A program made the position numbers and the translations under genes. This document shows, piece after piece, positions 5,150 through 18,123 of a stretch of 64,000 bases of DNA. Under the pieces are notes generated by a model. That model did not search any database and had not been told where the DNA came from. It saw only the letters and a list, made by a program, of their open reading frames with translations. Each line of letters opens with the position of its first letter. Within the stretch, counting starts at the first letter, position 1. The DNA is taken from assembly GCF_010093025.1 (NCBI RefSeq), contig NZ_CP048114.1, positions 4,340,001 to 4,404,000 on the forward strand. The letters are read 5' to 3'. The DNA comes from Edaphobacter sp. 12200R-103. GTDB taxonomy: Bacteria > Acidobacteriota > Terriglobia > Terriglobales > Acidobacteriaceae.

Positions 5150-5345
5150 CAAAAACCATAAATCCAGAGTTTTATGTCCGTCAATGCATAAATTCTGAAC
5201 AAGCGTTCCCGGCCCTCGTCGTTCGCGTGGCCGTTGATTGGACGCGGTGCTCCGAGGCCTGACGCTGTATCGATGCACACCTTGGCGCAGTCGACGAACA
5301 GGTTGTATGCGATGATGACGTGATTTGTGTCGCGGATAATTACCC
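5150..5345 (-). pseudogene. possible beta-helix gene fragment
   Basis: Read on the minus strand, one frame gives IRDTNHVIIAYNLFVDCAKV, then about 40 more residues ending at a stop near 5150. The N-x-F-V-D-C rung pattern is typical of right-handed parallel beta-helix proteins. There is no start codon or N-terminal domain. It reads as a leftover of a gene otherwise deleted, in line with the neighbouring fragments. The assignment is weak. Confidence 0.3.
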
Positions 5346-5360
5346 GGATAATTCCGAGGT

Positions 5361-5516
5361 GTGGCAGGCTTCGACCTTACCCACATTCTTCTGGACGATA
5401 TCGCGATCCAATTCCCGCAACTCAAGATGATCGTTGCGCACCTTGGCCATCCGTGGATTGGGGAGACGCTGGTCCTCATCAGGAAACATCCGAATCTTTA
5501 CTCGGATATTTCGGCG
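5361..5516 (+). pseudogene. amidohydrolase (PF04909-type) fragment
   Basis: About 50 residues match the C-terminal half of metal-dependent amidohydrolases of the lactonase/decarboxylase superfamily. The FPQLKMIVAHLGHPW segment holds the conserved active-site His, followed by RKHPNLYSDIS. The N-terminal barrel with the HxH metal site and the C-terminal end are absent. The frame then runs without a stop into a different family's tail, so an internal deletion has joined two genes. Confidence 0.6.
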
Positions 5517-5573
5517 ACGCTTCAGGAGTTCAACACGACGACTGGACCTTTGAGCCGGGAGCTGTGCCTCACC

Positions 5574-6118
<545 letters not shown>

Positions 6119-6131
6119 AAACATTCAGCGC

Positions 6132-6425
6132 AATACAGATGTTCAGAGGGCTATCGTGCGTGCCTGGACCACGGGAAAGTTCGTGACCGCGGTTTGTCAC
6201 GGACCGTGCGCGTTGCTCGGCGTAAATCTCGGGGATGGAACGCCATTTGTTCGCGGCAGAAAACTCACTTCGTTTTCGAAAAAGGAAGAATATGACTACG
6301 CACGCGAGGACGTGCCTTATGAGCTTGAAGATGCTTTGAGGGCAGAGGGTGCCGAGTCACCGGCCAGAATCCCGCCTCGGCAGGCCCTCTCGGACAGGAA
6401 CTGGTGGCCGCCCTCAAGCGATCTG
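6132..6425 (+). pseudogene. DJ-1/PfpI family gene remnant
   Basis: The frame reads NTDVQRAIVRAWTTGKFVTA, then the nucleophile-elbow motif AVCHGP, then VRGRKLTSFSKKEE and LEDALRAEGA. After a deletion, a different frame (from 6359) carries the typical C-terminus TGQNPASAGPLGQELVAALK. The N-terminal third, about 20 internal residues and the common frame are lost. The original would have been a type 1 glutamine-amidotransferase-like stress protein. Confidence 0.65.
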
Positions 6426-6477
6426 CAGTTTGCTGTCCATCGATATCGTTCTTGAAATTCTCCGTGACTCGATTACC

Positions 6478-6690
6478 CTATGAAACCGCAACCGCCTCGA
6501 GTACGAAGGCCGAGCGGTCAGCTAACGAGGGAATACGCGCCAGATAGTCCTGGTAGTGCGGCGTGGCGCGATGTGCCTCGACCGCGTCGCCGTTGCGATA
6601 GAGTTCATCGAGAACCATAGCGCTCAGGACTGGTTTGATCGCGCCAGACACTAGCGTGAGCTTGCGACGAAGTAGGGCTGCTGGTTTCTA
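6478..6690 (-). pseudogene. antibiotic-biosynthesis/quinol monooxygenase (YgiN-like) C-terminal fragment
   Basis: On the minus strand the sequence encodes VLDELYRNGDAVEAHRATPH, then YQDYLARIPSLADRSAFVLE and a stop at 6478. This is the C-terminal half of ABM-domain monooxygenases. Upstream codons give no sensible N-terminus before a stop near 6694. It is a truncated gene on the edge of the decayed segment. Confidence 0.55.
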
Positions 6691-6939
6691 GAGACCAATT
6701 AATAGGCGTCCCGCGCGTTATGGTTGTCTATTAACGGAAATCGCCAGCTCATTGATGAACGTCTGCTGGCCTCTCTCGTGGGCAAAAGCTGCACGATGGA
6801 TTAATTCCCGTCGTGCGAGGCTTGAAACCAAGCTTTATGCTGACGGGAACAATATAGGAACATCGGCAATATAGTATTTTCAAATACTTACAAGAACAAC
6901 GCCCGATCATCCTCGGAGAATTAGGCCTAAAATTTCTTG
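6691..6939. other. non-coding stretch with a 16-bp palindrome
   Basis: I see no gene. At 6873-6888 there is a perfect inverted repeat (AGTATTT, 2-base centre, AAATACT), AT-rich compared with its surroundings. It could be an operator left from the deleted genes. Otherwise the stretch holds nothing recognisable up to the att repeat. Confidence 0.4.
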
Positions 6940-7008
6940 TAAGTTATTGATTCTAAATGGTGGCCAGAGACGGGATCGAACCGCCGACGCCGGCCTTTTC
7001 AGGGCCGC
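6940..7008. repeat. att-type direct repeat, left copy (partial tRNA-Phe)
   Basis: These 69 bases are identical to 16100-16168. The copy includes the CCA end, T arm, variable loop and most of the anticodon arm of tRNA-Phe (minus sense) and then diverges at 7009. The tRNA 5' half is missing, so this copy cannot make a tRNA. Confidence 0.92.
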
Positions 7009-7254
7009 CTAGCAAGCCAACTAAGTGGTCTGGAATCAGCGGATATCATTGTGGGAATTAGCGTTATGGTCTCGTCGCTTTAGGATGGTTTAGGACCATT
7101 TGGGATGGTTTCGTCCGTACGATGGTCGTGTATTGGTCGTGCGCTCTTGAGCAGCAACTTCGCCGTCTTCGGGATCACCGGTGCATCTCTGCTGGTTTTT
7201 AGGTTCCAATCGAGTGGCCGGAAGCTTACCAGTGCTCATCACATTGATTAGCAG
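7009..7254. other. island left end with candidate recombinase arm sites
   Basis: There is no gene here. The stretch holds direct repeats GGATGGTTT at 7083-7091 and 7103-7111 and the left member of a 23-bp inverted repeat (7121-7143). Short repeats at fixed spacing near an att core are typical of arm-type integrase or excisionase sites; this role is inferred. Confidence 0.45.
7121..7143 (+). repeat. 23-bp inverted repeat, left member
   Basis: It begins GATGGTCGTGTATTGG and its exact reverse complement occurs at 15989-16011, about 113 bp inside the left att copy and 89 bp inside the right one. The similar distance from both island ends points to a role in recombination. Confidence 0.8.
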
Positions 7255-7830
7255 TTACTGTGATGAGCCGACGCCTTTCTCGGCCCGTTCAATTTCAAAG
7301 ATGTGTCGCCGACACAATATAAGCGGTATCCCTCCAAATATTCCGAAGCTGCAGTCGACAAGTCGCCAAACGATGGGAAGACCTCGAACTTGACCGGCTA
7401 TGAGGGCCAACGGAATGACTCCTGCACAGGCAATGAGACCGAAAGTGATAACCCACTTGTTCCGGACGGGATCACGGTAGGGCCCGATAAAGACCACCGC
7501 GATGACGAGGTGAGCGAAGGCTAGCCAATCGGTGCCATACGCCAGAAACGGAAATTGCCGATTTGTACTTGCGAGGGCGCTGTAAACCCGCGAAATCCAA
7601 GGGAGTAGATGGGTCAACTCGGCAAAGGGGCGTAAGGCAGAGCTCTTTAGAAGGATGAGGAAGAAATGGAGTTCGGTCTCCAAGGGAAATGCAGTGACGC
7701 CGCTGAGAATCAAACCGGCCATGACTATGCCAAGCCAAAAACGAGTCGCGCGAAGATGATGTTCTTGCGGGACATGAGTGGAACCCGCCTTAAATCTGTT
7801 GACTTCAGTCATTCGATCCTTTGTCGTCAT
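7255..7830 (-). CDS. small multi-pass membrane protein of the island
   Basis: The protein has 191 residues and I do not recognise a named family. About four hydrophobic segments are visible: near residues 32-52, 95-118, 130-148 and 152-172. The C-terminus is charged. It is the last gene of the leftward cassette, 112 bases after creD, on the same strand. Start at the ATG at 7830; the two later ATGs (residues 7 and beyond) are alternatives. Its position next to CreD suggests an envelope-related role, but nothing in the sequence defines it. Confidence 0.65.
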   Translation of the reverse strand: MTTKDRMTEVNRFKAGSTHVPQEHHLRATRFWLGIVMAGLILSGVTAFPLETELHFFLILLKSSALRPFAELTHLLPWISRVYSALASTNRQFPFLAYGTDWLAFAHLVIAVVFIGPYRDPVRNKWVITFGLIACAGVIPLALIAGQVRGLPIVWRLVDCSFGIFGGIPLILCRRHIFEIERAEKGVGSSQ

Positions 7831-7942
7831 GAGCTCGTCTCGCTGCTAGATCAAGGGTACAGTCTGGTTGCGACGGCTTGCCCCGTCCTGCTGGGTTGCC
7901 GCTTCCCTGAACGTCTGTCTCCGGACTGTGAGACTCATCTGC

Positions 7943-9292
7943 TTAGAAAGCAAGAGGCGGCGGCGGAGCGGTGGAGTTGTGGCTTTCTTGCAGCCTTTCG
8001 GATGCGCCTCGATACCAGTCCACTTTCCGCGTCAGCACCATCACTGCAGCCAGCAGAAAGAACAGCATGAGCGATCCGAGAATCAACGCATTGTCCTCCG
8101 AGATCAGTAATCCATAGATTGCCGCGTAAAAGCTCGTAAGCATTGCTCCAAATCCTACCCCTCGTGCCGTGCTTCGCAATACGAAGGATAGATAAAAGGA
8201 AAGCAAACCGATACAACCGGTACTGGCGATCAAGTACGCAAAGCCGAAGGCCATGTGCTCGGAAAAACTTACGAGCAAGAGGAAGAAGATCGCGAGACCG
8301 AAGCCTACGAGCAGGTATTGAATCGGGTGTATTGGCAATTGCTTCATTAACTCAAAGATGAAGAAGCCGCCAAATGTAAGGACGACGAAGAGAATCCCGT
8401 ACTTTACTGCGCGATTGCTCAGACTGTATGGATCGAGCAGCGTTGTCAGGCTCACGCTCATGAGATCAATTGCCTTTACCGGATTAGCCTCAAGCTGTAC
8501 TTGAGTTCCGCTGGCAAGCGAAGAGACCTCCCATACGGCATGGAAGCCGGTGCTCGCCACATTTCGCGTTCTCGGAAGGAACTGTCCACCAAAGAGAGGC
8601 GATCTCCAGTTCGACCGGATCTCCAACAAGTTCGTATCCCCAACCGGAGCCATGCTCAGCGTCTCAGTTCCGGCCAGGTTAAATTCGACAGCAAAATCCA
8701 CATTGCCCTTCAGGGCAGACATCCTGTGGAGTGGGACCCGCAGATTAGGCTGCCATCCAGTCGCGGCGGGCGCTCCCTGCAGTATCGTCTCCTCGATGCC
8801 ATTCACCAGTACCCTAGGTCTTCCAACAATCCCGCGGACATCGGTCACGGAAAGCGCTAAGTAGGGCTCGCCCCACACAACTGTACCTTCCGTCTGAGGA
8901 TCGACTACATCGAAGTGGCCCTTCAACTGGCCTTGGAGCTCGTAAACTTCTACCCTGTACAAGCCATGTCGACGTTCGCTGGGCAGCATGACTCCATGCA
9001 TATTCAACTCGCGAGGGAAGCTCGTGGCGGTTAGTTCCTCTTTTCGGACACTTGTCTTTTTTATCCCTTTGTCATTGGTCTCAGTGGTCTCGATGGTTTG
9101 AGTGTATGGACGCACCAATACTGGGCCGATGAGAATCTGTGGACCGGCGTAGCTTCCCTCAATCGACTGCACTGCCGCGTCACGGTACTTCTGCCTATCA
9201 TCGATAACGCCGCCCACCATGTAGAGAGCAATCAGGATCACACAGGCTAATGCCGAAATGGCGAAGCCCTTCTGTAAGATAATCTTGTTCAT
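7943..9292 (-). CDS. creD: CreD-family inner-membrane protein
   Basis: The 449 residues match the usual CreD length. There is one N-terminal membrane helix (residues 9-27), a large periplasmic beta-rich domain to about 290, and then about six helices (FFIFELMKQLPIHPIQYLLV is the conserved region). CreD is an inner-membrane protein linked to envelope stress and, in some species, beta-lactam response; its biochemical activity is not known. Here it lies 96 bases downstream of uppS, not next to a CreBC two-component system. The start has the ribosome site AAGGAAA. Regulation is probably by the winged-helix protein encoded upstream. Confidence 0.9.
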   Translation of the reverse strand: MNKIILQKGFAISALACVILIALYMVGGVIDDRQKYRDAAVQSIEGSYAGPQILIGPVLVRPYTQTIETTETNDKGIKKTSVRKEELTATSFPRELNMHGVMLPSERRHGLYRVEVYELQGQLKGHFDVVDPQTEGTVVWGEPYLALSVTDVRGIVGRPRVLVNGIEETILQGAPAATGWQPNLRVPLHRMSALKGNVDFAVEFNLAGTETLSMAPVGDTNLLEIRSNWRSPLFGGQFLPRTRNVASTGFHAVWEVSSLASGTQVQLEANPVKAIDLMSVSLTTLLDPYSLSNRAVKYGILFVVLTFGGFFIFELMKQLPIHPIQYLLVGFGLAIFFLLLVSFSEHMAFGFAYLIASTGCIGLLSFYLSFVLRSTARGVGFGAMLTSFYAAIYGLLISEDNALILGSLMLFFLLAAVMVLTRKVDWYRGASERLQESHNSTAPPPPLAF

Positions 9293-9388
9293 TTGTGGTT
9301 TCCTTACTTGCGTTGAAAAGTTATCTGGAGTTTCTGTGGCTTGAGGGTGGGCAGCTCGTCAATGAGTGGATTCGCACGGCCCAACTAA

Positions 9389-10165
9389 TCAAGAGGAGCC
9401 AGCCACTACCAAACTGGGGCATAGCGCAGACGGTGTCGGAATACCGCCGAAGCGTCGTTCCCTTTTCCTGAAGACTTCGAGGGCGGCGCCCAGATCGGCA
9501 TCACTGAAGTCCGGCCACATGCATTCGAGAAAGACCAATTCCGCGTAAGCCGACTCCCACAACAGGAAGTCAGACAGGCGCTGCTCGCCTCCCGTCCGAA
9601 TCACCAGATCGACATCGTCTGTACCGCGATAATTTCCCGCAAGGGATTGTCCGAGAAGGTCCGATAAAAATGGCCGATCCGTATCGCAAGCGGAGATCAT
9701 TTCGAGCGCGGCCTGCGCGATGGCCTCCCGCGAGGAGTAATCCACGGCAACACGCACGAGAATCCGGCGTCCGGGCGCTGTCGCTGCCTCTACTTCCTCA
9801 ATCTCTCGTAGCAGCGCCTTGGGCAGACGGTCTCGTCGGCCGATCACTTGGAGCCTAGCTCCGTTCTTTCTGAGCCGTTCGCGCTCCAGGCGCAAATAAC
9901 CACGGAGCAACCAGAAGATGCTCTGCACCTCGAAAGCCGGCCTGCGCCAATTGTCTGAGGAAAAAGCGTAGAGGGTCAGAGAGCGTATGCCGAGTTCGAG
10001 CGCATGCTCGACCACACGCCGTGCGGCTGCGGCGCCAGCTCGATGCCCCGCCATGCGAGGCAGGCCGCGTCGCTCAGCCCATCGGCCGTTTCCGTCCATG
10101 ATGATTGCAACATGTAGCCAACTTTGTACTGCAAAGTGATTGGGCGCAGAAGCATTGCTTTGCAT
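9389..10165 (-). CDS. uppS: isoprenyl transferase (undecaprenyl diphosphate synthase family)
   Basis: This cis-prenyltransferase has 258 residues. Visible motifs are [17 protein letters not shown] (catalytic Asp24), FSSDNWRRP (Asp where most UppS have Glu) and [20 protein letters not shown] near the C-terminus. UppS condenses isopentenyl diphosphate onto farnesyl diphosphate to give the lipid carrier for cell-wall precursors. Since it sits on an island, it is probably a second copy beside a core uppS; product length cannot be read from sequence. The ribosome site GGAGG lies 10 bases before the ATG, and a 17-bp palindrome covers the space between them and the start codon. Confidence 0.9.
10121..10137. 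promoter_or_regulatory. 17-bp palindrome inside uppS start region
   Basis: ACTTTGTACTGCAAAGT has 6-bp arms and a 5-base centre. It is one of three related palindromes in this cassette (also 10157-10173 and 11194-11210). It lies in codons 10-15 of uppS and is a likely regulator-binding site. Confidence 0.5.
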
Positions 10166-10173
10166 CGTAAAGT
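10157..10173. promoter_or_regulatory. 17-bp palindrome over the uppS start codon
   Basis: GCTTTGCATCGTAAAGT matches the arms and centre of the operator at 11194. It spans the uppS ATG (10163-10165) and part of the spacer to its ribosome site, so a bound protein would cover the translation start region or an internal promoter. Confidence 0.55.
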
Positions 10174-10191
10174 AACCTCCGAAAAAAAGGG

Positions 10192-10587
10192 TCAGGCTTT
10201 GGATGGAGTAAGACCACGCATTAGGCGAGGCGAGGGTTCGTCCTTCGAAACTTTGGCTGCATCCGCTACTACTTGTTCAAGAGTGGAGAGATATTCAAGA
10301 AAGCGTTCTCGACCTGCCTTAGTAATCCGGCAGAAGGTCTGGGGACGGTTCTGTTCATGTCCCTTAGTGATCTCAACCATATGTTCTGCTTCGAGCACGC
10401 TTAGGTGACGGCTAAGATTCCCGTCTGTAAGCGAGCACAACTGTTTCAAGTCATTAAAGATCAGCCCCTTCGGATTGGTGATGAGGCACGTCAGCACGCT
10501 GAGGCGTGCCCGCTCATGGATCACCCGATCCAGCCCTTCATAGGCAAAACGTCCTTCGCTCCCTCGGGGCTCATGCTTCATCTTCAT
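10192..10587 (-). CDS. winged-helix transcriptional regulator
   Basis: The protein has 131 residues from the ATG at 10587 (MKMKHEPRG). It overlaps the end of the upstream membrane-protein gene by 17 bases, so translation is probably coupled. The central part is a winged helix of the MarR/ArsR-like HTH group that acts on envelope operons: [20 protein letters not shown], then the recognition helix in [19 protein letters not shown], and a wing with [13 protein letters not shown]. It has no cysteine metal site. Its most likely targets are the 17-bp palindromes at 11194, 10157 and 10121. A longer GTG-started form is open but would overlap the neighbour heavily. Confidence 0.82.
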
Positions 10588-11185
10588 TCTCCGGCGTGGC
10601 AACAAGCAGTATCCCAGCCACAAGCAACTGACCACCTCCAAAGGCAACGCCCATCGTCCATGGGGCGAGCGCGCGGAAATCACCAAGCGAAAGACAGATC
10701 AACCCGGTGATCAGATACCAAGCACCTGCCGCAATCATCGGGCGCGGCAGAAAGCGGCACGAAGAAAACACGCCGAGGCTATAGATCACCTGCCAGATTC
10801 CTGGAAGCATCCACAGGACCGCCGGCGCAAAACGCACTAAGACGGCTGTAATTAGCATCCCCGCACCCACAGCAGGCATGAATTGCTCGACGGCGGTACG
10901 GATCATCTCATCAGAAAGGCCAGAGTGCAATCGCCGGGTGCGCGTGTAGATTTGTACTCCGGCAATAGCAGAAGAGAGCACGGCGGTTCCTATCCAAAGG
11001 CTCAAGTATGCCTGTATATGGTTTGCCGCATCAGGCAGCCGGAAGGCTTGAGCAGCTGCAGCAAGTAGTGCGACTACACCCGTGCCGGCGAGCGTTGCTG
11101 GACCGTAGCCGCGAAACTGCGTGCTGCGCGCCATTTGCTTGCGGATGTTGCTGATGTCACCCAGCGCATTGTGTAGATCGCTCAT
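10571..11185 (-). CDS. membrane protein, first gene of the leftward island operon
   Basis: The protein has 204 residues from the ATG at 11185 (MSDLHNALGDI). A soluble N-terminus of about 30 residues is followed by about six hydrophobic segments (residues ~33-52, 58-78, 100-122, 128-145, 150-168, 172-195). No named family is recognised. Proteins of this layout often precede a winged-helix regulator and may modulate it, which is an inference. The upstream promoter (11194-11222) would start transcription at or next to the ATG, so the mRNA may be leaderless; no ribosome site is visible. Confidence 0.7.
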   Translation of the reverse strand: MSDLHNALGDISNIRKQMARSTQFRGYGPATLAGTGVVALLAAAAQAFRLPDAANHIQAYLSLWIGTAVLSSAIAGVQIYTRTRRLHSGLSDEMIRTAVEQFMPAVGAGMLITAVLVRFAPAVLWMLPGIWQVIYSLGVFSSCRFLPRPMIAAGAWYLITGLICLSLGDFRALAPWTMGVAFGGGQLLVAGILLVATPENEDEA

Positions 11186-11193
11186 ACGCGTTA

Positions 11194-11210
11194 ACTTTAC
11201 ATCGCAAAGT
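11194..11210. promoter_or_regulatory. operator palindrome of the leftward operon
   Basis: ACTTTACATCGCAAAGT has 5-bp arms, with near-symmetric flanking bases. It covers the -10 box and most of the spacer of the leftward promoter, which fits repression by the winged-helix regulator of the same operon. Confidence 0.6.
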
Positions 11211-11222
11211 GACTGATGGCAA
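11194..11222 (-). promoter_or_regulatory. predicted promoter of the leftward island operon
   Basis: Reading leftward there is a -35 TTGCCA (11222-11217), a 17-base spacer and a -10 TAAAGT (11199-11194). The expected transcription start falls at about 11187-11185, on the start codon. The boxes match consensus at four positions each. Confidence 0.5.
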
Positions 11223-11272
11223 GCCAATTTCCCCCCCAGGGCAAGTCCACCACTTATGGCCGAAGCGATTAA

Positions 11273-11288
11273 TTTGACCCTGTTCAAA
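11273..11288. promoter_or_regulatory. TetR-type operator, distal copy
   Basis: TTTGACCCTGTTCAAA, on its reverse strand, differs from the proximal copy at 11323-11338 by one base. It lies just upstream of the -35 box of the tetR promoter and between the two divergent operons. Confidence 0.6.
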
Positions 11289-11294
11289 AAAATC

Positions 11295-11323
11295 TTGACT
11301 TGCTAACTGGTCACGCTCATTAT
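11295..11323 (+). promoter_or_regulatory. predicted tetR promoter
   Basis: A -35 TTGACT (11295-11300), a 17-base spacer and a -10 CATTAT (11318-11323) precede the ATG at 11330. The -10 box abuts the proximal operator. The predicted start of transcription is within a few bases of the start codon. Confidence 0.55.
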
Positions 11324-11338
11324 TTGAACATGGTCAAA
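11323..11338. promoter_or_regulatory. TetR-type operator, proximal copy over the start codon
   Basis: TTTGAACATGGTCAAA is a palindrome centred on the tetR ATG (11330-11332). Its centre is 50 bp from that of the inverted copy at 11273-11288. Binding here would block transcription of its own operon. Confidence 0.65.
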
Positions 11339-12010
11339 AACGAACCAACTACGGACAAAGGCGGGCAAACGCGGAGCCATATCTTCCAAAGCGCACTCGA
11401 GCTGTTCCGGCAGAAGGGATTTGACTCCACGACTATGCAAGACATCGCCGCCCATGCACGGGTAGTCAAGAGCGCCGCTTACTACTATTTTCCAAGCAAG
11501 GAATCGATCATTCAGGCGTACTACGAGACGGTGCAAGCCGAGCAGGAGCGACTCTGCGAAGAGGCGTTCGCCCAAAGTTCTGATCTGAAGGTTCGGCTAG
11601 CGACGGCGATGCACTCGAAATTCGAACTGGCTAAGAACGACCGTAGGTTGCTCGGGGTGGTCTTTCGTTACACTGGCGAGCCCGAACATCCGCTCTCCTG
11701 TCTCGGGCGAGGAACAACAGACATCCGCAGTCGTAGCACACAGGTTTTCCGGAACGCGATTGCGGCGGAGAAGTTGCCTAGGGATCTCCAAGAGCTTCTT
11801 CCCGTCGCTCTCTGGGCTCTTCAGATGGGTCTCTTGGTGATGTTCCTCTACGACTCGTCCGAGGACCAGATCCGAACACGGCGTCTGGCTGATGGTTCGC
11901 TAGCTCTGACTATTAAGTTACTTGGCCTCGCGAAATTAGCAGTTCTAAAACCGGTACGAACCAAGATTCTCGCGCTCTTGCGTGAGGCAAATCTGTTGCC
12001 TGAAAGCTGA
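11330..12010 (+). CDS. TetR/AcrR-family regulator
   Basis: The protein has 226 residues from the ATG at 11330 (MVKNEPTTDKGG); an upstream in-frame codon at 11300 would place the promoter inside the gene. The N-terminal HTH is clear: IFQSALELFRQKGFDSTTMQ, then IAAHARVVKSAAYYYFPSKE, the usual TetR recognition helix and following Y-F-x-S-K-E. The helical C-terminal domain would bind an unknown ligand. It heads the rightward operon of the island and is expected to repress itself and the four genes behind it through the two operators at 11273 and 11323. Confidence 0.9.
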   Translation: MVKNEPTTDKGGQTRSHIFQSALELFRQKGFDSTTMQDIAAHARVVKSAAYYYFPSKESIIQAYYETVQAEQERLCEEAFAQSSDLKVRLATAMHSKFELAKNDRRLLGVVFRYTGEPEHPLSCLGRGTTDIRSRSTQVFRNAIAAEKLPRDLQELLPVALWALQMGLLVMFLYDSSEDQIRTRRLADGSLALTIKLLGLAKLAVLKPVRTKILALLREANLLPES

Positions 12011-12019
12011 GGAGATGCG

Positions 12020-12934
12020 ATGAGCGATATCGACAAGCAGAACCCGAAGATCGAGCCAGCCCAGTGGAGCGTAGTCGCGATCGTCGTAGCCTTCGCGGCC
12101 GGAGCCTTTCTCTACAAGTTGTTCATGCATGAGCGACTTGGTCATAGCGCCGCGATGTTCCTAGGCATACCTGCTGTTCTAGCGATCCTGCTGGCGCTAG
12201 CACCAAAAGCGAAGACCGCGACTGGAGGAATTCTAAAGGGCATTACTTTGGCGCTCCTGGTGGTCGCTCCCTTGTTGGGCGAGGGATACCTGTGCATTCT
12301 CTTCGCTTCGCCCCTCTTCTATATCGTCGGTATCGGGGTCGGACTTGCAATGGACAAGTCGCGCAGAAAGCAAGGTGCGACGCTGAGCTGCGTAGCGTTG
12401 TTGTTGCTACCAATGTGCCTTGAAGGAGTGGTCCCCCAGTTGACCTTCAATCGAGCCCAATCGGTTGAGGTCCGGAGCGTTGTAGCTGCTCCTGCTGATG
12501 AGGTTGAACATGCGCTAACGCAGGGTCCAAATGTAACTACTCCTCTACCGCTGGCTCTTCGCATCGGCTTCCCCAGGCCACTTGGCGCATGGGGCGAGGG
12601 TCTTGCAGTTGGGGACACGAGGACCATTCACTTCGCGGGGGCAGAGGGAGACCCGCCAGGAGACCTTGTTATGCGAGTGACGGAGCGTCACCCCGGCTAC
12701 GCCCGTTTTGAGACGGTAAGCGACCAGAGCAAACTTACCCAATGGGTGCGGTGGACCAGTTCAGAGGTGGAGTGGACGGCGCTGGACAAGGGTCACACGG
12801 CGGTGACGTGGCGCATCGACTTCATGCGGCAGCTCGATCCCGCATGGTATTTCACTCCATGGGAGAGAGCGGCAGTGAAGGAGGCGGCGGCGTACTTGAT
12901 CGACGCCGACGCGACACCCGTGCGGAGGTACTGA
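12020..12934 (+). CDS. membrane protein with C-terminal START/SRPBCC-like domain
   Basis: The protein has 304 residues. About four hydrophobic segments lie in the first 140 residues (near 18-36, 44-60, 72-108 and 120-138). The C-terminal ~160 residues begin VEVRSVVAAPADEVEHAL and contain the aromatic/basic pattern of SRPBCC (START-like) ligand-binding domains (GVVAAPADEV-like start, then VTERHPGYARFETVSDQ and a final helix WERAAVKEAAAYLI). It therefore looks like a lipid-binding domain anchored in the inner membrane. The ribosome site GAGGAG precedes the ATG. It is nine bases after tetR and abuts the next gene. The family assignment is from pattern, not alignment. Confidence 0.65.
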   Translation: MSDIDKQNPKIEPAQWSVVAIVVAFAAGAFLYKLFMHERLGHSAAMFLGIPAVLAILLALAPKAKTATGGILKGITLALLVVAPLLGEGYLCILFASPLFYIVGIGVGLAMDKSRRKQGATLSCVALLLLPMCLEGVVPQLTFNRAQSVEVRSVVAAPADEVEHALTQGPNVTTPLPLALRIGFPRPLGAWGEGLAVGDTRTIHFAGAEGDPPGDLVMRVTERHPGYARFETVSDQSKLTQWVRWTSSEVEWTALDKGHTAVTWRIDFMRQLDPAWYFTPWERAAVKEAAAYLIDADATPVRRY

Positions 12935-14260
12935 ATGGACCACGCCGATTGGGAACGAGCAGCTGCCGTATACGTACCTCTGGCCGCTGCGATCATAGCG
13001 AGGCTGCTCTACGGCCGACAGCCGCGCCAGTTCGCTGCTTGCTTGCTCAGCGTCTTGTGGACGCTACCGTCGCTGCTCCTTCTTCAACGCTTGAATCAGT
13101 ATGCGGTTTGGTGGAGCTTTGCAGCGGGCTCAGAGGTTGAGTTTCGCGGGATGCCGTTGGAGCTTTTCCTTGGTTGGATCGTCCTGTGGGGTGTTGTTCC
13201 TCAGCTGGCTCTTTCACGCCTAGGCATCATTTGGTGCGCCGTAGTTATGGTTGCGCTTGACTGCATCGTGATGCCAATGTCCAGTTCGGCAATATATTTA
13301 AAAGCCCACTGGCTGTTGGGAGAGGCCGCGGCTGTCAGCCTGGTCCTGGTCCCCGCGCTTTGCATCGGACAGTGGACTTATGAAAACACGCATCTTCGAC
13401 GGCGTGTGATGCTTCAGATCGTCACATCCGGCATGCTCTTTCTGTTTTTCGTGCCAGAAATCATCTTCGCACTACGGCCTGGAACCGGCTGGGGCCCACT
13501 TTTTGGTCTCTCGACTTGGGCTCGCCAAATCGAACTTCAGATGATCTTGCTGCTCGCGGTGCCCGGTATTGCTGCGGTTATGGAATTTGCAGAGCGCGGA
13601 TTTGGAACGCCCATTCCATACGACCCTCCTAAACGGTTGGTAACGAGCGGCATCTACCGATATTGCGCCAACCCAATGCAGATGTCCTGCGCGCTGGTTC
13701 TTATGGCTTGGGCAGGGGTGCTCAGGAGCGGCTGGATGTCGGGGGCGGCCTGTGTCTCGGTCGTCTACAGTGCAGGGATCGCCGCATGGGACGAGGAAGA
13801 AGATCTGGCCCGTCGTTTCGGGAACGAATGGAGCAACTACCGGTTTGAGGTCCGAAACTGGTGGCCAAGGTGGAGACCGTTCCATAGCGGACCGCCTGCG
13901 CTTATCTACATCGCCCGGAGTTGTGGCCCATGCAGCGAGGTTCGTACATGGCTCGAAGCGAGATCACCTTTGGGATTGCAGATTGTCGATGCGGAGACGT
14001 TACCGGCAGGCTCGATCCAGCGGATGCGTTACGACCCCAGAGACGGAAGCGGCACTGTCGATGGGGTCCGTGCAATGGGCAGAGCGGTTGAGCATTTACA
14101 TCTAGGCTGGGCCTTGTGCGGTGCAGCAGTGCGTCTTCCGTGCGTTTCGCAACTTGTCCAGTTGTTCATGGATGCGGCTGGCTTGGGTCCACGCGTGATC
14201 AGTTGCGAGATGGACCTGAGTCCGCAGCACACAGAGCGGGAATTGAGCTCGATACGATGA
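12935..14260 (+). CDS. integral-membrane methyltransferase (ICMT/PEMT-like) fused to a DCC thioredoxin-fold domain
   Basis: The protein has 441 residues. About eight hydrophobic segments fill the first 270 residues. The SAM-binding signature of isoprenylcysteine/phospholipid methyltransferases is at about 225-315: RLVTSGIYRYCANPMQMS, then WDEEEDLARRFGNEWSNY and a final VRNWWPRW. From about 322 a separate domain starts LIYIARSCGPCSEVRTWLEA, with a CGPC redox motif like DCC/DUF393 thiol-disulfide proteins; it ends with a cysteine-containing helical region. The gene starts directly after the previous stop and overlaps the next by ATGA. The substrate could be a lipid, prenyl chain or thiol; none is shown by sequence. 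Confidence 0.72.
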   Translation: MDHADWERAAAVYVPLAAAIIARLLYGRQPRQFAACLLSVLWTLPSLLLLQRLNQYAVWWSFAAGSEVEFRGMPLELFLGWIVLWGVVPQLALSRLGIIWCAVVMVALDCIVMPMSSSAIYLKAHWLLGEAAAVSLVLVPALCIGQWTYENTHLRRRVMLQIVTSGMLFLFFVPEIIFALRPGTGWGPLFGLSTWARQIELQMILLLAVPGIAAVMEFAERGFGTPIPYDPPKRLVTSGIYRYCANPMQMSCALVLMAWAGVLRSGWMSGAACVSVVYSAGIAAWDEEEDLARRFGNEWSNYRFEVRNWWPRWRPFHSGPPALIYIARSCGPCSEVRTWLEARSPLGLQIVDAETLPAGSIQRMRYDPRDGSGTVDGVRAMGRAVEHLHLGWALCGAAVRLPCVSQLVQLFMDAAGLGPRVISCEMDLSPQHTERELSSIR

Positions 14261-14772
14261 TCAGACTTCAAGAGACCACAGTCATCGATGCCCCAATCCA
14301 GCGATGTTTCGACCTCGCCCGCAGCGTCGAGGTCCACTTGATCGCGAACGTACACTCCGGTGAACAAGCACTTGCAGTTGGTGAAATTACCTCAGGCCTC
14401 GTCGGTCTGGGCCAGAAGGTCACTTGGCGCGCCAAACACTTCGGCATCTGGCATAACCTGACCAGCGAGACCACGGCCCTGGAGCCGCCATCCCATTTTC
14501 AGGTCACGATGATTCAGGGCATCTTCCGCTCCATGCAAGCCGATCATCTGTTTCGAGCCCTTCTATCCGGTGCAACCGAGATGAAGGACATCTTTGCGAT
14601 CGCCGCCCCACTTCCCCTTCTTGGACCTTTGGCCGAAGTCCTGTTTCTTCGGCGCTACATGCTGGCCCTGGTACGTGAGCGCAATGCTGTCATCAAGGAG
14701 ATCGCAGAGTCCTCCGAGTGGCAGCACTACCTGTCTTACCCCGAAGCATTGCGAGAGGACCTGTCGCAATGA
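14257..14772 (+). CDS. SRPBCC-family protein
   Basis: The protein has 171 residues from the ATG at 14257, which overlaps the preceding stop (ATGA). It is a START-like fold: TTVIDAPIQRCFDLARSVEV at the N-terminus, LGQKVTWRAKHFGIWHNLTS in the middle, and a C-terminal helix after PLLGPLAEVLFLRRYM. Such single-domain proteins bind hydrophobic ligands or act as polyketide-cyclase-like enzymes. Proteins of this type often pair with TIGR01777 epimerases, as here with the next gene, which overlaps by four bases. The ligand is unknown. Confidence 0.85.
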   Translation: MIRLQETTVIDAPIQRCFDLARSVEVHLIANVHSGEQALAVGEITSGLVGLGQKVTWRAKHFGIWHNLTSETTALEPPSHFQVTMIQGIFRSMQADHLFRALLSGATEMKDIFAIAAPLPLLGPLAEVLFLRRYMLALVRERNAVIKEIAESSEWQHYLSYPEALREDLSQ

Positions 14773-15743
14773 AGATCGTTATTCCCGGAGGCACAGGTCA
14801 AGTTGGGCAAATCCTTGCCCGCCACTTTCACCAACAAGGGGATCATGTCACTGTCCTTAGCCGCAGACCTCATGCCGTTCCTTGGCGTGTGGTCCCCTGG
14901 GACGGTGTCACCCTCGGCCCGTGGATCGAGGAACTCGACCGATGCGACGTTTGCATCAATCTTGCTGGGAGGAGCGTCAACTGCCGCTACACTCCGGCAA
15001 ACCGCCTCTCCATCTTCGAATCGCGCGTTCGTTCCACGCAGATACTCAATCAAGCCATCGCAGCGATTGAGCACCCTCCTTCGGTCTGGCTCAACGCCAG
15101 CACGGCCACAATCTACCGTCACGCACTGGACCGTCCCATGGACGAAGCTACCGGTGAGTTTGGTGGCGACGAGCCAGGCGCACCCGATACCTGGAACTTC
15201 TCAATTCGGGTGGCGAAAGCTTGGGAAGAAGCATTCTTCTCCAAGCCGACTCCTGGGACGAGGAAGATAGCACTACGTAGTGCCATGACCCTGAGTCCCG
15301 ATCGCGGCGGGGTCTTTGATGTCTTCCTGGGCTTGGTTCGTCATGGTCTCGGAGGGACAATACTGCCTGGCAACCAATACGTGTCATGGATCCATGAAGC
15401 GGACTTCATCCGCGCTGTCGAATTCCTCATCGAGCGACAGGATATTGCCGGGGCGGTGAATCTTGCCGCTCCCCACCCGCTGCCGAACTGCGAATTCCTA
15501 CGTGCCCTTCGCCAGGCGTGGGGTACACGCATCGGTCTGCCAACCGCAAGATGGATGCTCGAAATCGGCACCTTTCTTCTACGCACCGAATCGGAACTGA
15601 TCCTCAAGAGTCGCCGGGTTGTTCCCGGCCGTCTTTGTATAGCTGGATTCGAATTCCAGTATCCCGGTTGGCCCGAAGCATCATGCGATCTAGTAACCCG
15701 CTGGAGGGCAGGTCGAGAAGAAATGCATAGCTCTCGGCGGTAG
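14769..15743 (+). CDS. TIGR01777-family NAD(P)-dependent epimerase
   Basis: The protein has 324 residues from the ATG at 14769. Rossmann motif is GGTGQVGQILARHF, followed by INLAGRSVNCRYTPANR, LNASTATIY and a C-terminal DUF1731-like part with LPTARWMLEIGTFLLRTESE and RVVPGRLCIAGFEFQYP. This is the YfcH/YfhF-type extended SDR family, whose substrate is not established; sugar-nucleotide or lipid-linked substrates have been considered. It is the last gene of the tetR operon, translationally coupled to the SRPBCC gene. The usual SDR Tyr is in TIYRHA. Confidence 0.88.
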   Translation: MKIVIPGGTGQVGQILARHFHQQGDHVTVLSRRPHAVPWRVVPWDGVTLGPWIEELDRCDVCINLAGRSVNCRYTPANRLSIFESRVRSTQILNQAIAAIEHPPSVWLNASTATIYRHALDRPMDEATGEFGGDEPGAPDTWNFSIRVAKAWEEAFFSKPTPGTRKIALRSAMTLSPDRGGVFDVFLGLVRHGLGGTILPGNQYVSWIHEADFIRAVEFLIERQDIAGAVNLAAPHPLPNCEFLRALRQAWGTRIGLPTARWMLEIGTFLLRTESELILKSRRVVPGRLCIAGFEFQYPGWPEASCDLVTRWRAGREEMHSSRR

Positions 15744-16099
15744 CTGATGAGTTCACCGAGGTAGCTCGGCTTCAGGTGGTCGAACCCGCTCTCAACTCTG
15801 TCATTTCTGCTCGCCGAAGTAGCGCGTCTCCGCGGCACTTTAAGTTCAAGTCAGAAGGTCATCGCATCACCGCATGATTCAATCCCCAACATGGAATGAT
15901 CTTAAACGGCTGGTGGCGCTGATTCTCCGGCCTTCACATCCAAAGCATTCTCAGCGACTTAGACCATTGGGCGAAATGAGGAAACCAACGCACGACCAAT
16001 ACACGACCATCACTCGAAGTGCTCACCATACTGAAAATAAATCATTTAGCCGAATCGCGCGAAAGCCTTCCAAATGGGGGGCTTCTGTTTCGAAACTCC
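15744..16099. other. island right end, no gene
   Basis: About 356 bases separate the last island gene from the att repeat. The stretch holds the right member of the 23-bp inverted repeat (15989-16011). No coding frame with a ribosome site or domain is visible; integrase is absent. Confidence 0.6.
15989..16011 (-). repeat. 23-bp inverted repeat, right member
   Basis: It is an exact reverse complement of 7121-7143 and lies 89 bp inside the right att repeat. Confidence 0.8.
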
Positions 16100-16168
16100 T
16101 AAGTTATTGATTCTAAATGGTGGCCAGAGACGGGATCGAACCGCCGACGCCGGCCTTTTCAGGGCCGC
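16100..16168. repeat. att-type direct repeat, right copy (within intact tRNA-Phe)
   Basis: It is identical to 6940-7008. Bases 16118-16168 belong to tRNA-Phe, and the outer 18 bases lie beyond its 3' end. Confidence 0.92.
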
Positions 16169-16192
16169 GCTCTACCACTGAGCTATCTGGCC
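16118..16192 (-). tRNA. tRNA-Phe (anticodon GAA)
   Basis: Read on the minus strand, 75 nt start GGCCAGATAGCTCAGTGG and end with an encoded CCA. The acceptor pairs GGCCAGA with TCTGGCC. The anticodon loop CTGAAAA (16156-16162) gives GAA, and the T loop GTTCGATCC is standard. It serves as the integration site of the island on its 3' side. Confidence 0.97.
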
Positions 16193-16366: not shown

Positions 16367-16399
16367 AGTGGGCCAGTTTGAGATTCAAACGGACCCACT
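16367..16399. other. hairpin between tRNA-Phe and the deaminase gene
   Basis: AGTGGG and GTTTGA pair with TCAAAC and CCCACT around a 3-base loop; the middle three bases mismatch. No T-run follows on either strand, so a terminator role is doubtful. Confidence 0.4.
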
Positions 16400-16464
16400 A
16401 CCGAAGAATTGATTCTGCCGCCGCGCTATCCTTTTCTCATACAGTAACTCTGAAAGGGAAGCCC

Positions 16465-18123
16465 ATGTTTCGTCCATGCTCCTGCCTGGCTTTCGCCCTC
16501 CCCCTTTGTCTGTCTTTGGCTGGTTTTGCACAGGTGGCTGCGGCTCCAGCCCGGCATGCATTTACTCACTCCAGCAAGGCAGAGCAAAATGCCATCCGCG
16601 CCTTCAACGCCGCGGAGCGTAATCCTCTTCAGCTACGGGCCTTCCTTGCGCAGATGCCCAAGGGAGCGGATTTGCATATGCATCTCTCCGGTGCAATCTA
16701 TGCAGAGACCTTTATTAGGGATGCGGCCGCCGACCATCTTTGTTACAGTCCCATCACCCGCCGTCTCTTCAAGCCGTCGGCGACCACGCGTAGCCTGCCG
16801 CCCCAGCCCGTCTGCGGGGAAGGGAACCGCCGCGCCGAAGATGCTCTTAAGGACCAGGACCTCTACGACAGGATGGTAGATGACTTTTCGATGCGCGGCT
16901 TCGTTCCATCGTCCGGAGTTAGCGGTCACGACCAGTTCTTTGCGACCTTCGAGCGATTCTCGGCCCTGGGGCATGTTCATATAGGAGAGTGGCTTGACGA
17001 GGTTGCCAGCCGCGCCGCTGCTCAGAACGAGCAATATCTTGAGGTGATGCACACGCCGGATTTTCTCGCCGCAGCAAAGCTTGGATACTCCATCCCCTGG
17101 CCCTCAAGTCCAGCAGGAAACTCCGATCGAACCGGCGATGCCGCAGGAGCAAGCCATGCTGACCTGGCTCGACTGCGAGAGCAGCTCTTATCTGGTGGGA
17201 TTCGCGAGATGGCTGCAGCTAACCGCCAGGAATTTTCTGACGCATTGGCTGCTCGTGACCGAATCGAGCACTGCGGTACGCCCGCCGCGGCGCCTGGCTG
17301 CCGCGTAAAGATCCGCTTCATTTATCAGATCCTTCGCGGATTCCCGCCACAGCAGGTCTTTGCTCAGACGCTCCTCGGCTTCGAGGCGCTTCAGGAGGAG
17401 TTCGACTCCGGGCATCCAATCGCGGTTGGAATTAATTTCGTCATGCCCGAAGACGGTTATCTTTCCATGTCGGAATATCACCGTCAGATGTTGATGCTCG
17501 ACTATCTGCACAGCGTTTATCCTCATGTCCACATCACACTTCATGCCGGCGAACTGGCTCCGGGACTGGTTTCCCCTGATGGTCTTCGTTTCCATATCCG
17601 CGAAGCGGTTGAACTGGGGCATGCCGAACGCATCGGCCATGGAGTCGATGTGATGTATGAAGACAACCCGCAGGTCCTTCTGAAGGAAATGGCAGATCGT
17701 CACGTCATGACCGAGATAAACCTCAGTTCGAATGCTCTCATCCTTGGAGTGCAGAAGGAGTGGCACCCACTCCCCGTCTATAGAAAAGCTCATGTTCCGG
17801 TCGCGCTCTCGACCGACGATGAAGGAGTGTCGCGCATCGAGCTTACCCATGAGTACACGCGCGCAGTCCTGGAGTTCCAGCTGGGGTATCTTGACCTCAA
17901 AGATATGGCCCGCACCTCGCTTGAGCACAGCTTTCTTCCGGGGAATAGTCTCTGGGCAAAGCCAGATACCTTTACAACCGTTAATTCAGCATGCACCGGA
18001 CAGATCGCCGGCTCCGGCACTCCATCGTCTCGCTGCCGCAATTTTCTGGATGCAAACGAAAAGGCAGCTGAACAGTGGGATTTGGAGCGCCGCTTCAATG
18101 CCTTCGAAGCAGAGCAGCACTAG
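16465..18123 (+). CDS. exported adenosine-deaminase-like protein
   Basis: The protein has 552 residues from the ATG at 16465 (ribosome site AAAGGGA); an upstream in-frame start adds a non-signal-like leader. A signal peptide covers about 1-25 (LAFALPLCLSLAGFAQVAA). Metal-dependent deaminase motifs are KGADLHMHLSGAIYAETF (HxH), HITLHAGELAPGL, IGHGVDVMY and STDDEGVSRIEL. The family usually has SDDP at the last site. Family members hydrolyse adenosine or related purines; this one is longer and would work in the periplasm. An esterase gene follows 46 bases later on the same strand. Confidence 0.85.
   Translation: MFRPCSCLAFALPLCLSLAGFAQVAAAPARHAFTHSSKAEQNAIRAFNAAERNPLQLRAFLAQMPKGADLHMHLSGAIYAETFIRDAAADHLCYSPITRRLFKPSATTRSLPPQPVCGEGNRRAEDALKDQDLYDRMVDDFSMRGFVPSSGVSGHDQFFATFERFSALGHVHIGEWLDEVASRAAAQNEQYLEVMHTPDFLAAAKLGYSIPWPSSPAGNSDRTGDAAGASHADLARLREQLLSGGIREMAAANRQEFSDALAARDRIEHCGTPAAAPGCRVKIRFIYQILRGFPPQQVFAQTLLGFEALQEEFDSGHPIAVGINFVMPEDGYLSMSEYHRQMLMLDYLHSVYPHVHITLHAGELAPGLVSPDGLRFHIREAVELGHAERIGHGVDVMYEDNPQVLLKEMADRHVMTEINLSSNALILGVQKEWHPLPVYRKAHVPVALSTDDEGVSRIELTHEYTRAVLEFQLGYLDLKDMARTSLEHSFLPGNSLWAKPDTFTTVNSACTGQIAGSGTPSSRCRNFLDANEKAAEQWDLERRFNAFEAEQH

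Follow-up and report, generated by a model that had tools for sequence, protein, structure and literature searches.

The stretch of DNA analyzed here (the window) comprises 64,000 nucleotides of the genome of Edaphobacter sp. 12200R-103 (contig NZ_CP048114.1, positions 4,340,001 to 4,404,000) and contains a 9.1-kb island at a tRNA-Phe gene. This island is probably a non-autonomous integrative element, that is, a helper-dependent satellite island, lying in a tandem array. Related integrase-less islands, together with elements carrying matching recombinases, suggest that hitchhiking islands of this sort form a family. Islands that lack an integrase are commonly regarded as wrecks. In the present case, the ends look like a distinct, inherited type. 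They are matched from left to right and to integrases of other genomes, and the right end was found in at least 8 of 79 genera. Whether such islands are decayed or adapted hitchhikers can be tested directly with a single integrase and a small set of ends, and they are a possible route for the movement of whole operons between soil bacteria. The family sample used for comparison comprised 398 genomes in 79 genera; genomes are labeled G and loci L, and G000 is the genome of strain 12200R-103 itself (a single contig of 4,554,841 bp).

The tRNA-Phe target and the ends of the island

The island of about 9.1–9.2 kb is enclosed by a perfect 69-bp direct repeat, one copy of which lies inside the tRNA-Phe gene (Table 1). 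An initial annotation of the window had described this repeat, the lack of an integrase beside the tRNA gene and a cargo of two operons, and all three descriptions were confirmed. The repeat search recovered the repeat, which occurs in full length at just these two places in the genome; the next best match is 88% identical over positions 2–67. The tyrosine recombinase domain PF00589 has 12 matches and PF00239 two matches genome-wide, and none of them is located in the window. The cargo consists of two divergent gene sets at 7255–11287 (-) and 11300–15743 (+). Since the tRNA-Phe is the sole tRNA found by ARAGORN in the window, the left att copy represents the displaced 3′ part of the tRNA with 18 bp of flank. 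In the elements G329b, G102 and G374 the att sequence is shared between left and right up to about position 66–67, and at a left end that lies at a non-tRNA place (L057) the match begins at 55. The exchange point may therefore be in or near the anticodon loop, at about 6994–7005 and 16154–16165. The perfect identity of the repeats had been taken as a sign of recent insertion. It is weak evidence of recency, because 3 of the 10 elements compared, the present one included, show 100% identity over the common stretch. A truncation of att at L053:4545 was considered as a crossover point and dropped: an open reading frame (ORF) begins right after it, which we take to be IS110-like from a motif read in the sequence. 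In this element of Edaphobacter aggregans, the att site is interrupted by the start of the ORF from L053:4546 onward.

The two halves of a perfect 23-nt inverted repeat lie inward of the att copies, at a distance of about 110 bp on the left and 90 bp on the right. Allowing three mismatches, the 23-nt sequence occurs at these two places of the genome alone, and the control gave no match. It holds two direct TGGTCG-like units 11 bp apart. Next to the att copies of related elements are sites that have this geometry but other letters, namely TGTTCGCG, TGTACG, TGTTCC and TGTCC. These were found with a motif scan; a search for tandem periods gave little. We regard the 23-nt repeat and the corresponding sites of the relatives as putative arm-type integrase sites and refer to their letters as the arm alphabet. 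In G000 itself, a tRNA-Asp integrase (L006:2148-2304, G000:C1 at about 1525450) is followed by its stop codon, a TGTGCCCGTATCGTGCCC arm-like pair and then the tRNA. Judging from this case, such a layout of the arms may be common to integrases of this type. The element-specific half of the left end (7009–7044) and the adjoining 3′ part of the tRNA resemble a degenerate 5′ half of a tRNA, in which a hairpin replaces the D arm; left ends from other genera look similar.

Complete elements and matching of their arms

Spans from a left end to a right end were delimited in G000, G329 (two), G102, G374, G138, G186, G063 and contig C30 of E. aggregans. The complete genome G186 contains four elements in a row that end at the tRNA-Phe gene; three of these lack an integrase, and the other has a tyrosine recombinase. 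PF00589 and PF00239 are absent from nine integrase-less spans: one each in G000, G102, G374 and G138, two in G329 and three in G186. In G063 and C30, no integrase was found with a home-made profile alone. A resolvase considered for the RYN_18 satellite contig was rejected, as it belongs to a different contig (G063:C539 has 12,040 bp and the satellite contig 12,743 bp). When 13 spans were compared, no gene was common to all, and an outer-membrane protein of 1,102–1,272 aa was present in six. Forty proteins, a subset of the ORFs, were sampled from G063, G374a, G329a, G102, G186 and G264. They are metabolic, transport, regulatory and uncharacterised proteins and one HipA, besides the integrases of G186_3 and G264; no relaxase or transposase was found among the 40.

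The agreement between the left and right arms was scored as the best 18-nt match in 11 complete integrase-less elements. In this set G374 was entered as its outer pair, since its two inner spans mismatched, and G186_3 and G264, each having an integrase, were left out. The arms of the same element gave a summed score of 181 compared with a mean of 157.3 for permuted pairs, and none of 20,000 permutations reached 181 (P = 5e-5). Ten of the 11 elements scored at least 15 of 18. Among integrase-bearing elements with both ends located, one alphabet was likewise seen by eye at the two ends of G283, G258, G207 and G272 (4 of 4 examined) and of G011. The ends of G186_3, which has another recombinase, do not carry one alphabet. 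At G186:C1:5218930-5229553 the left arm belongs to the GGTCG type and the tyrosine recombinase adjoins a GCGGACTG-like repeat; this element is apparently a chimera of two elements. G264, in which an interior integrase is followed by a degenerate right end of the integrase type, is read as a decayed tandem.

A tandem junction at position 6940

The initial annotation missed that position 6940 is not an original edge of the chromosome; the sequence to its left belongs to a second element. An arm-type site in the TGTTCC alphabet lies 77 bp outside the att copy, placed as in L061, L063:19670, L078:14583 and L084, and the 90 bp left of 6940 can be aligned with element right ends from other genomes. 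These two features make 6940 a tandem junction, at which the right end of one integrase-less element is joined to the left end of the next one. Further junctions of the order right end, att, left end were found at L054 (the same site as L097), L089, L090 (the G138 site), L099, L100 and L106, and in G186, G329, G138, G430 and G063. At G138:C29:737077-737365 such a junction lies inverted within a larger array span. The left end of the left neighbor and the left border of the array were not found in G000, and the left-end matches of this genome at 3941504 and 3982862 have no recognised partner within reach. The neighbor contains short gene pieces at 5340–6600 of the window, similar to amidohydrolase/enolase and short-chain dehydrogenase genes; pieces similar to these are also present in the cargo of the G102 element.

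Two types of right end and their distribution

Right ends at tRNA-Phe fall into two types. Where the full gene of a tRNA-Phe-group integrase adjoins the tRNA, a direct arm comes shortly after the stop codon, about 47 bp from att, and a short conserved spacer separates it from the tRNA. At the integrase-less right end the arm is inverted and lies 77–93 bp from att, and a terminator-like hairpin is found in the GGTCG subtype. GC-rich hairpins similar to that of the present island were seen by eye in other right ends of this subtype. A profile of the integrase type recognized 22 of its own 22 loci (those of 28 at which the end could be cut out) and none of the 27 integrase-less loci, and the integrase-less profile recognized 27 of 27 and none of 22, both profiles being partly trained on the loci tested. 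As the profiles do not cross-match, deletion of the integrase alone would not convert one right end into the other.

For the survey of the family, two sequence-only models were built. The right-end model R1 was derived from 21 hand-chosen sequences, including 6849–6963 and 15995–16123 of the window, and the left-end model R2, which fits integrase-bearing elements too, from 17 sequences, including 6996–7144. With a cut-off of E ≤ 1e-4 and stricter filters, so that the counts are lower bounds, R1 found the right end in at least 23 of the 398 genomes (at least 8 of 79 genera) and R2 the left end in at least 53 (at least 17 of 79 genera). The exact arm pattern was found in 21 stretches in a search over 84,980 species with one genome each. 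Their titles all name acidobacterial taxa, among them E. aggregans, E. modestus, Granulicella sp. dw_53 and Acidobacterium sp. S8. In 17 of these stretches the resemblance to the ends or att extends past the arm; two are truncated at the edge of the locus, and two match in the arm only. The possibility that the islands are phage satellites was examined and rejected. In viral contigs the arm pattern has one match, taken as chance because the stretch lacks att, tRNA and integrase, and the left-end pattern has none. The left end had no match in 50,697 phage records, and its one match to plasmids, of 44 bases, is to the tRNA part.

Candidate helper integrases

An integrase element with the arm site of the island is present in another genus. 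On contig L098, from a metagenome-assembled genome of Granulicella sapmiensis, a gene for a 372-aa tyrosine integrase (L098:2848-3966) ends beside tRNA-Phe, and the arm site after its stop codon is letter-for-letter identical to the 23-nt site of the island. L160 likewise has an integrase next to tRNA-Phe with the identical arm after its stop codon. The L098 site apparently corresponds to that of G061 and G356. The TGTTCC alphabet of the left neighbor stands beside the integrases of L181 (G146) and L184 (G015, a C-terminal piece at the start of a contig). The integrase-bearing elements share att, the left-end layout and the arm alphabet with the integrase-less ones, and their left arm lies at about the same distance. 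The tRNA-Phe integrase group, defined at E ≤ 1e-40, was found in 26 of the 398 genomes. In a tree of 22 integrases, similar alphabets grouped just in part. Two relatives of the G. sapmiensis integrase lie in G207 and G272, and the elements of these genomes have genes near their integrases in common; in G207 these neighboring genes encode a relaxase, a split type IV coupling protein, RepA, a ParA-like protein and a Toprim protein. Because of these genes, both look like integrative and conjugative or integrative and mobilizable elements (ICEs/IMEs). A second integrase arrangement was observed at a tRNA-Phe-like att in L066, L079 and L087, in which the integrase reads away from att and an arm-like pair lies 28 bp from it.

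The initial annotation had proposed that the island depends on the integrase of another element. As a whole the interpretation is partly supported. The guess was right in direction and its core is supported: the matched arms, the relatives having the same ends with other cargo, and the integrase element with the identical arm site all speak for it. The helper was not found in G000, where no integrase gene abuts the right arm (none beside 16100 or 6940) and no cognate integrase (E ≤ 1e-40) was found, the best match being 27% identical. The island is therefore probably stranded at present.

Proposed mechanism and alternative explanations

We propose that the island is a satellite carrying nothing but cargo and two recombination ends. 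The left end is composed of a tRNA-like half site and an arm, and the right end of an inverted arm, a terminator-like hairpin and the 3′ half of tRNA-Phe. A tyrosine integrase of the tRNA-Phe group, encoded on another element whose arms use this alphabet too, would bind the arms and recombine within the anticodon stem-loop of the tRNA gene. The element would thereby circularize and integrate, and the tRNA would always be restored. Insertion into an occupied tRNA-Phe gene would lead to tandem arrays, of which the island and its left neighbor are two members. Spread between cells would take place with the help of a co-resident integrase element, which may either supply its integrase in trans or, as an ICE/IME neighbor, be excised together with the satellite as a composite.

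Several observations weigh against this model. The first is that no cognate integrase was found in G000. Likewise, 20 of the 23 genomes with the right end gave no match to the integrase group, so that helper and satellite are seldom seen together at present; both are present in G430, G264 and G323, three genomes compared with 1.5 expected by chance. The helper's own right arm is direct at about 47 bp, as opposed to inverted at 77–93 bp in the satellites. The right arm of G329b is direct and lies further inside, and the arm region (model position ≤10) was reached by just 25 of 37 R1 matches. G102 fails the arm match (13 of 18), and G374 had to be represented by its outer pair because its inner spans do not match; G102, G374a and G264 fit the rule poorly. 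Finally, a collinear copy of the cargo in another species, G014, is rearranged and has no clear left end. It matches 11270–15772 at 89% and the remainder at 69–73%, the match being interrupted around the undecaprenyl synthase gene, and it lies 37–45 kb from the tRNA-Phe gene; a separate copy of the right end is located 69 kb beyond the cargo in opposite orientation. This copy is an old, rearranged relative; its collinear cargo and its separate right end speak for the model.

The missing helper and the unlike orientation of the right arm would also be expected if a different recombinase moved the islands, for example an unrecognised enzyme of the host or of an unsampled full-length relative. 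We consider this unlikely, as att, the left-end layout, the approximate distance and the letters of the arms are the same as in integrase-bearing elements, and nine integrase-less spans contain neither PF00589 nor PF00239.

Under ordinary decay, the islands would be former ICEs/IMEs, each deprived of integrase and transfer genes on its own but still in possession of its att sites, and there would be no dedicated lineage of ends. The island would then be a classical cis-mobilizable element (CIME); CIMEs are described as decay products in the part of the review consulted (PMC5704250). Integrase fragments at tRNA-Phe in G036 and G023, the degenerate right end beside the integrase of G264 and the chimeric look of G186_3 show features that fit such a history. 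Simple deletion should, however, leave a right end of the integrase type with a direct arm about 47 bp from att, and the right end of the islands differs from it, as reflected in the absence of cross-matches between the two profiles, partly trained on the loci tested as they are. Decay as the general origin therefore appears rather improbable to us.

It is highly improbable that homologous recombination or duplication at tRNA-Phe produced the repeat and the array and that the island is a fixed chromosomal segment: the missing helper and the displaced G014 copy would agree with it, but duplication would not yield arms that match, half sites specific to the element, or ends that recur with other cargo, and at 25 tRNA-Phe loci the gene on the 5′ side was kept at 23 and this cargo was found beside tRNA-Phe at none.

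Taken further, the interpretation as helper-dependent satellites can be extended to a broader picture, which we put forward tentatively. Non-autonomous, operon-sized elements of the Acidobacteriaceae may form a dedicated class that has a right end evolved on its own, consisting of the inverted arm and the terminator-like hairpin. The arm alphabets might then act as a specificity code by which each lineage of satellites is tied to one lineage of integrases. In the manner of a superintegron, tRNA-Phe might serve as a shelf for whole metabolic operons that is refilled whenever an ICE of matching alphabet passes. The inverted right arm may make recombination of the satellite helper-dependent or different in direction from that of the helper.

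Comparison with known systems

Tycheposons are tRNA-associated cargo islands that carry their own tyrosine recombinase, and none is present in this element. The Tycheposons of Prochlorococcus are named as a proposed satellite family (PMC11389934). Integrase-less, co-mobilised islands are already known from the consulted parts of the literature, namely CIMEs (PMC5704250), islands of Dehalococcoides (PMC3146451) and the microcin H47 island (PMC3191183). The separate right-end type and the matched arm alphabets were not found described among the open-licence literature matches listed.

According to the part of the review compared, CIMEs lack integration and transfer genes, retain attL and attR and form tandem accretions with ICEs and IMEs (PMC5704250). 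The same is seen here: the island is flanked by both att copies, the Pfam scan of its cargo and the search of the window for PF00589 and PF00239 found no integration or transfer gene, and the right end of a second element lies left of 6940. In contrast to CIMEs, which that text derives from ICE/IME decay, the islands have a right end of a separate, conserved type, and its difference from the integrase type argues against origin by simple deletion. In Dehalococcoides, 15 of 31 ssrA islands have no integration module and were proposed as possible cis-mobilizable elements (McMurdie et al. 2011, PMC3146451). As here, the cargo islands stand in tandem at a single RNA gene and have att repeats; unlike here, the integration module has serine recombinases, and the parts of the article compared describe no dedicated end type or matching of arm sites (PMC3146451). 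The microcin H47 island of E. coli has no recombinase genes, and its excision and integration were detected, the functions coming from the rest of the genome; as far as the consulted part of the report goes, it is a 13-kb island with imperfect repeats, whereas the present islands occur in several genera at a tRNA gene (PMC3191183). Movement of units by an enzyme in trans is also found in the excerpted account of cassette arrays lacking an integron integrase (CALIN) and miniature inverted-repeat transposable elements (PMC11389934). These are integron cassettes or short coding-free units in the account seen, and the elements considered here have about 9–35 kb and a tRNA target.

Cargo and flanking gene

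The features of the island and its surroundings are collected in Table 1. None of the ten cargo ORFs has a mobility domain in Pfam. The initial annotation had named shared ancestral synteny through 6940–16168 as evidence that would speak against an island. Such synteny was not found at the 25 tRNA-Phe loci, compared in pieces of at most 20 kb with ORFs of at least 100 aa (E ≤ 1e-15): the flanking gene was missed at two loci, which have less than 1 kb of flank in the piece, and the cargo ORFs of 7009–16099 were found at none of the 25.

Table 1. Features of the tRNA-Phe island, its left neighbor and its right flank (window positions)
Feature	Position	Strand	Evidence
Arm-type site of left neighbor, GATGTTCCTATATTGTTCCC, TGTTCC alphabet (putative)	6845-6864	-	77 bp outside att copy
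Right end of left neighbor, integrase-less type	6849-6963	+	R1, E=9.1e-14
att copy, displaced tRNA-Phe 3′ part + 18 bp	6940-7008	+	direct-repeat search
Left end, element-specific half 7009-7044 + arm region	6996-7144	+	R2 member
Left arm-type site, GATGGTCGTGTATTGGTCGTGCG (putative)	7121-7143	+	repeat search
Cargo ORF, 191 aa, no Pfam match	7255-7830	-	ORF list, Pfam
Cargo, CreD family inner-membrane protein	7943-9292	-	PF06123, E=6.7e-134
Cargo, undecaprenyl diphosphate synthase family	9389-10165	-	PF01255, E=5e-71
Cargo, winged-helix regulator	10192-10686	-	PF13601
Cargo ORF, 238 aa, no Pfam match	10571-11287	-	ORF list, Pfam
Cargo, TetR-family regulator	11300-12010	+	PF00440, PF17931
Cargo ORF, 304 aa, no Pfam match	12020-12934	+	Pfam
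Cargo, PEMT-like methyltransferase domain protein	12935-14260	+	Pfam; G014 homologue 88% identical
Cargo ORF, 171 aa, no Pfam match	14257-14772	+	Pfam
Cargo, NAD-dependent epimerase family with DUF1731	14772-15743	+	Pfam
Right arm-type site, inverted copy of left (putative)	15989-16011	-	repeat search
Right end, integrase-less type, inverted arm site	15995-16123	+	R1, E=1.5e-23 (training member)
Terminator-like hairpin in right end	16063-16084	+	fold of 16051-16100, -17.2 kcal/mol
att copy restoring tRNA 3′ half	16100-16168	+	direct-repeat search, ARAGORN
Intact tRNA-Phe (GAA), integration target	16118-16192	-	ARAGORN
Flanking gene, adenosine deaminase family, tRNA 5′ side	16378-18123	+	conserved in relatives

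Homologues of the PEMT-domain protein are present in 25 of the 398 family genomes, G000 included; their surroundings were viewed for G014 alone.

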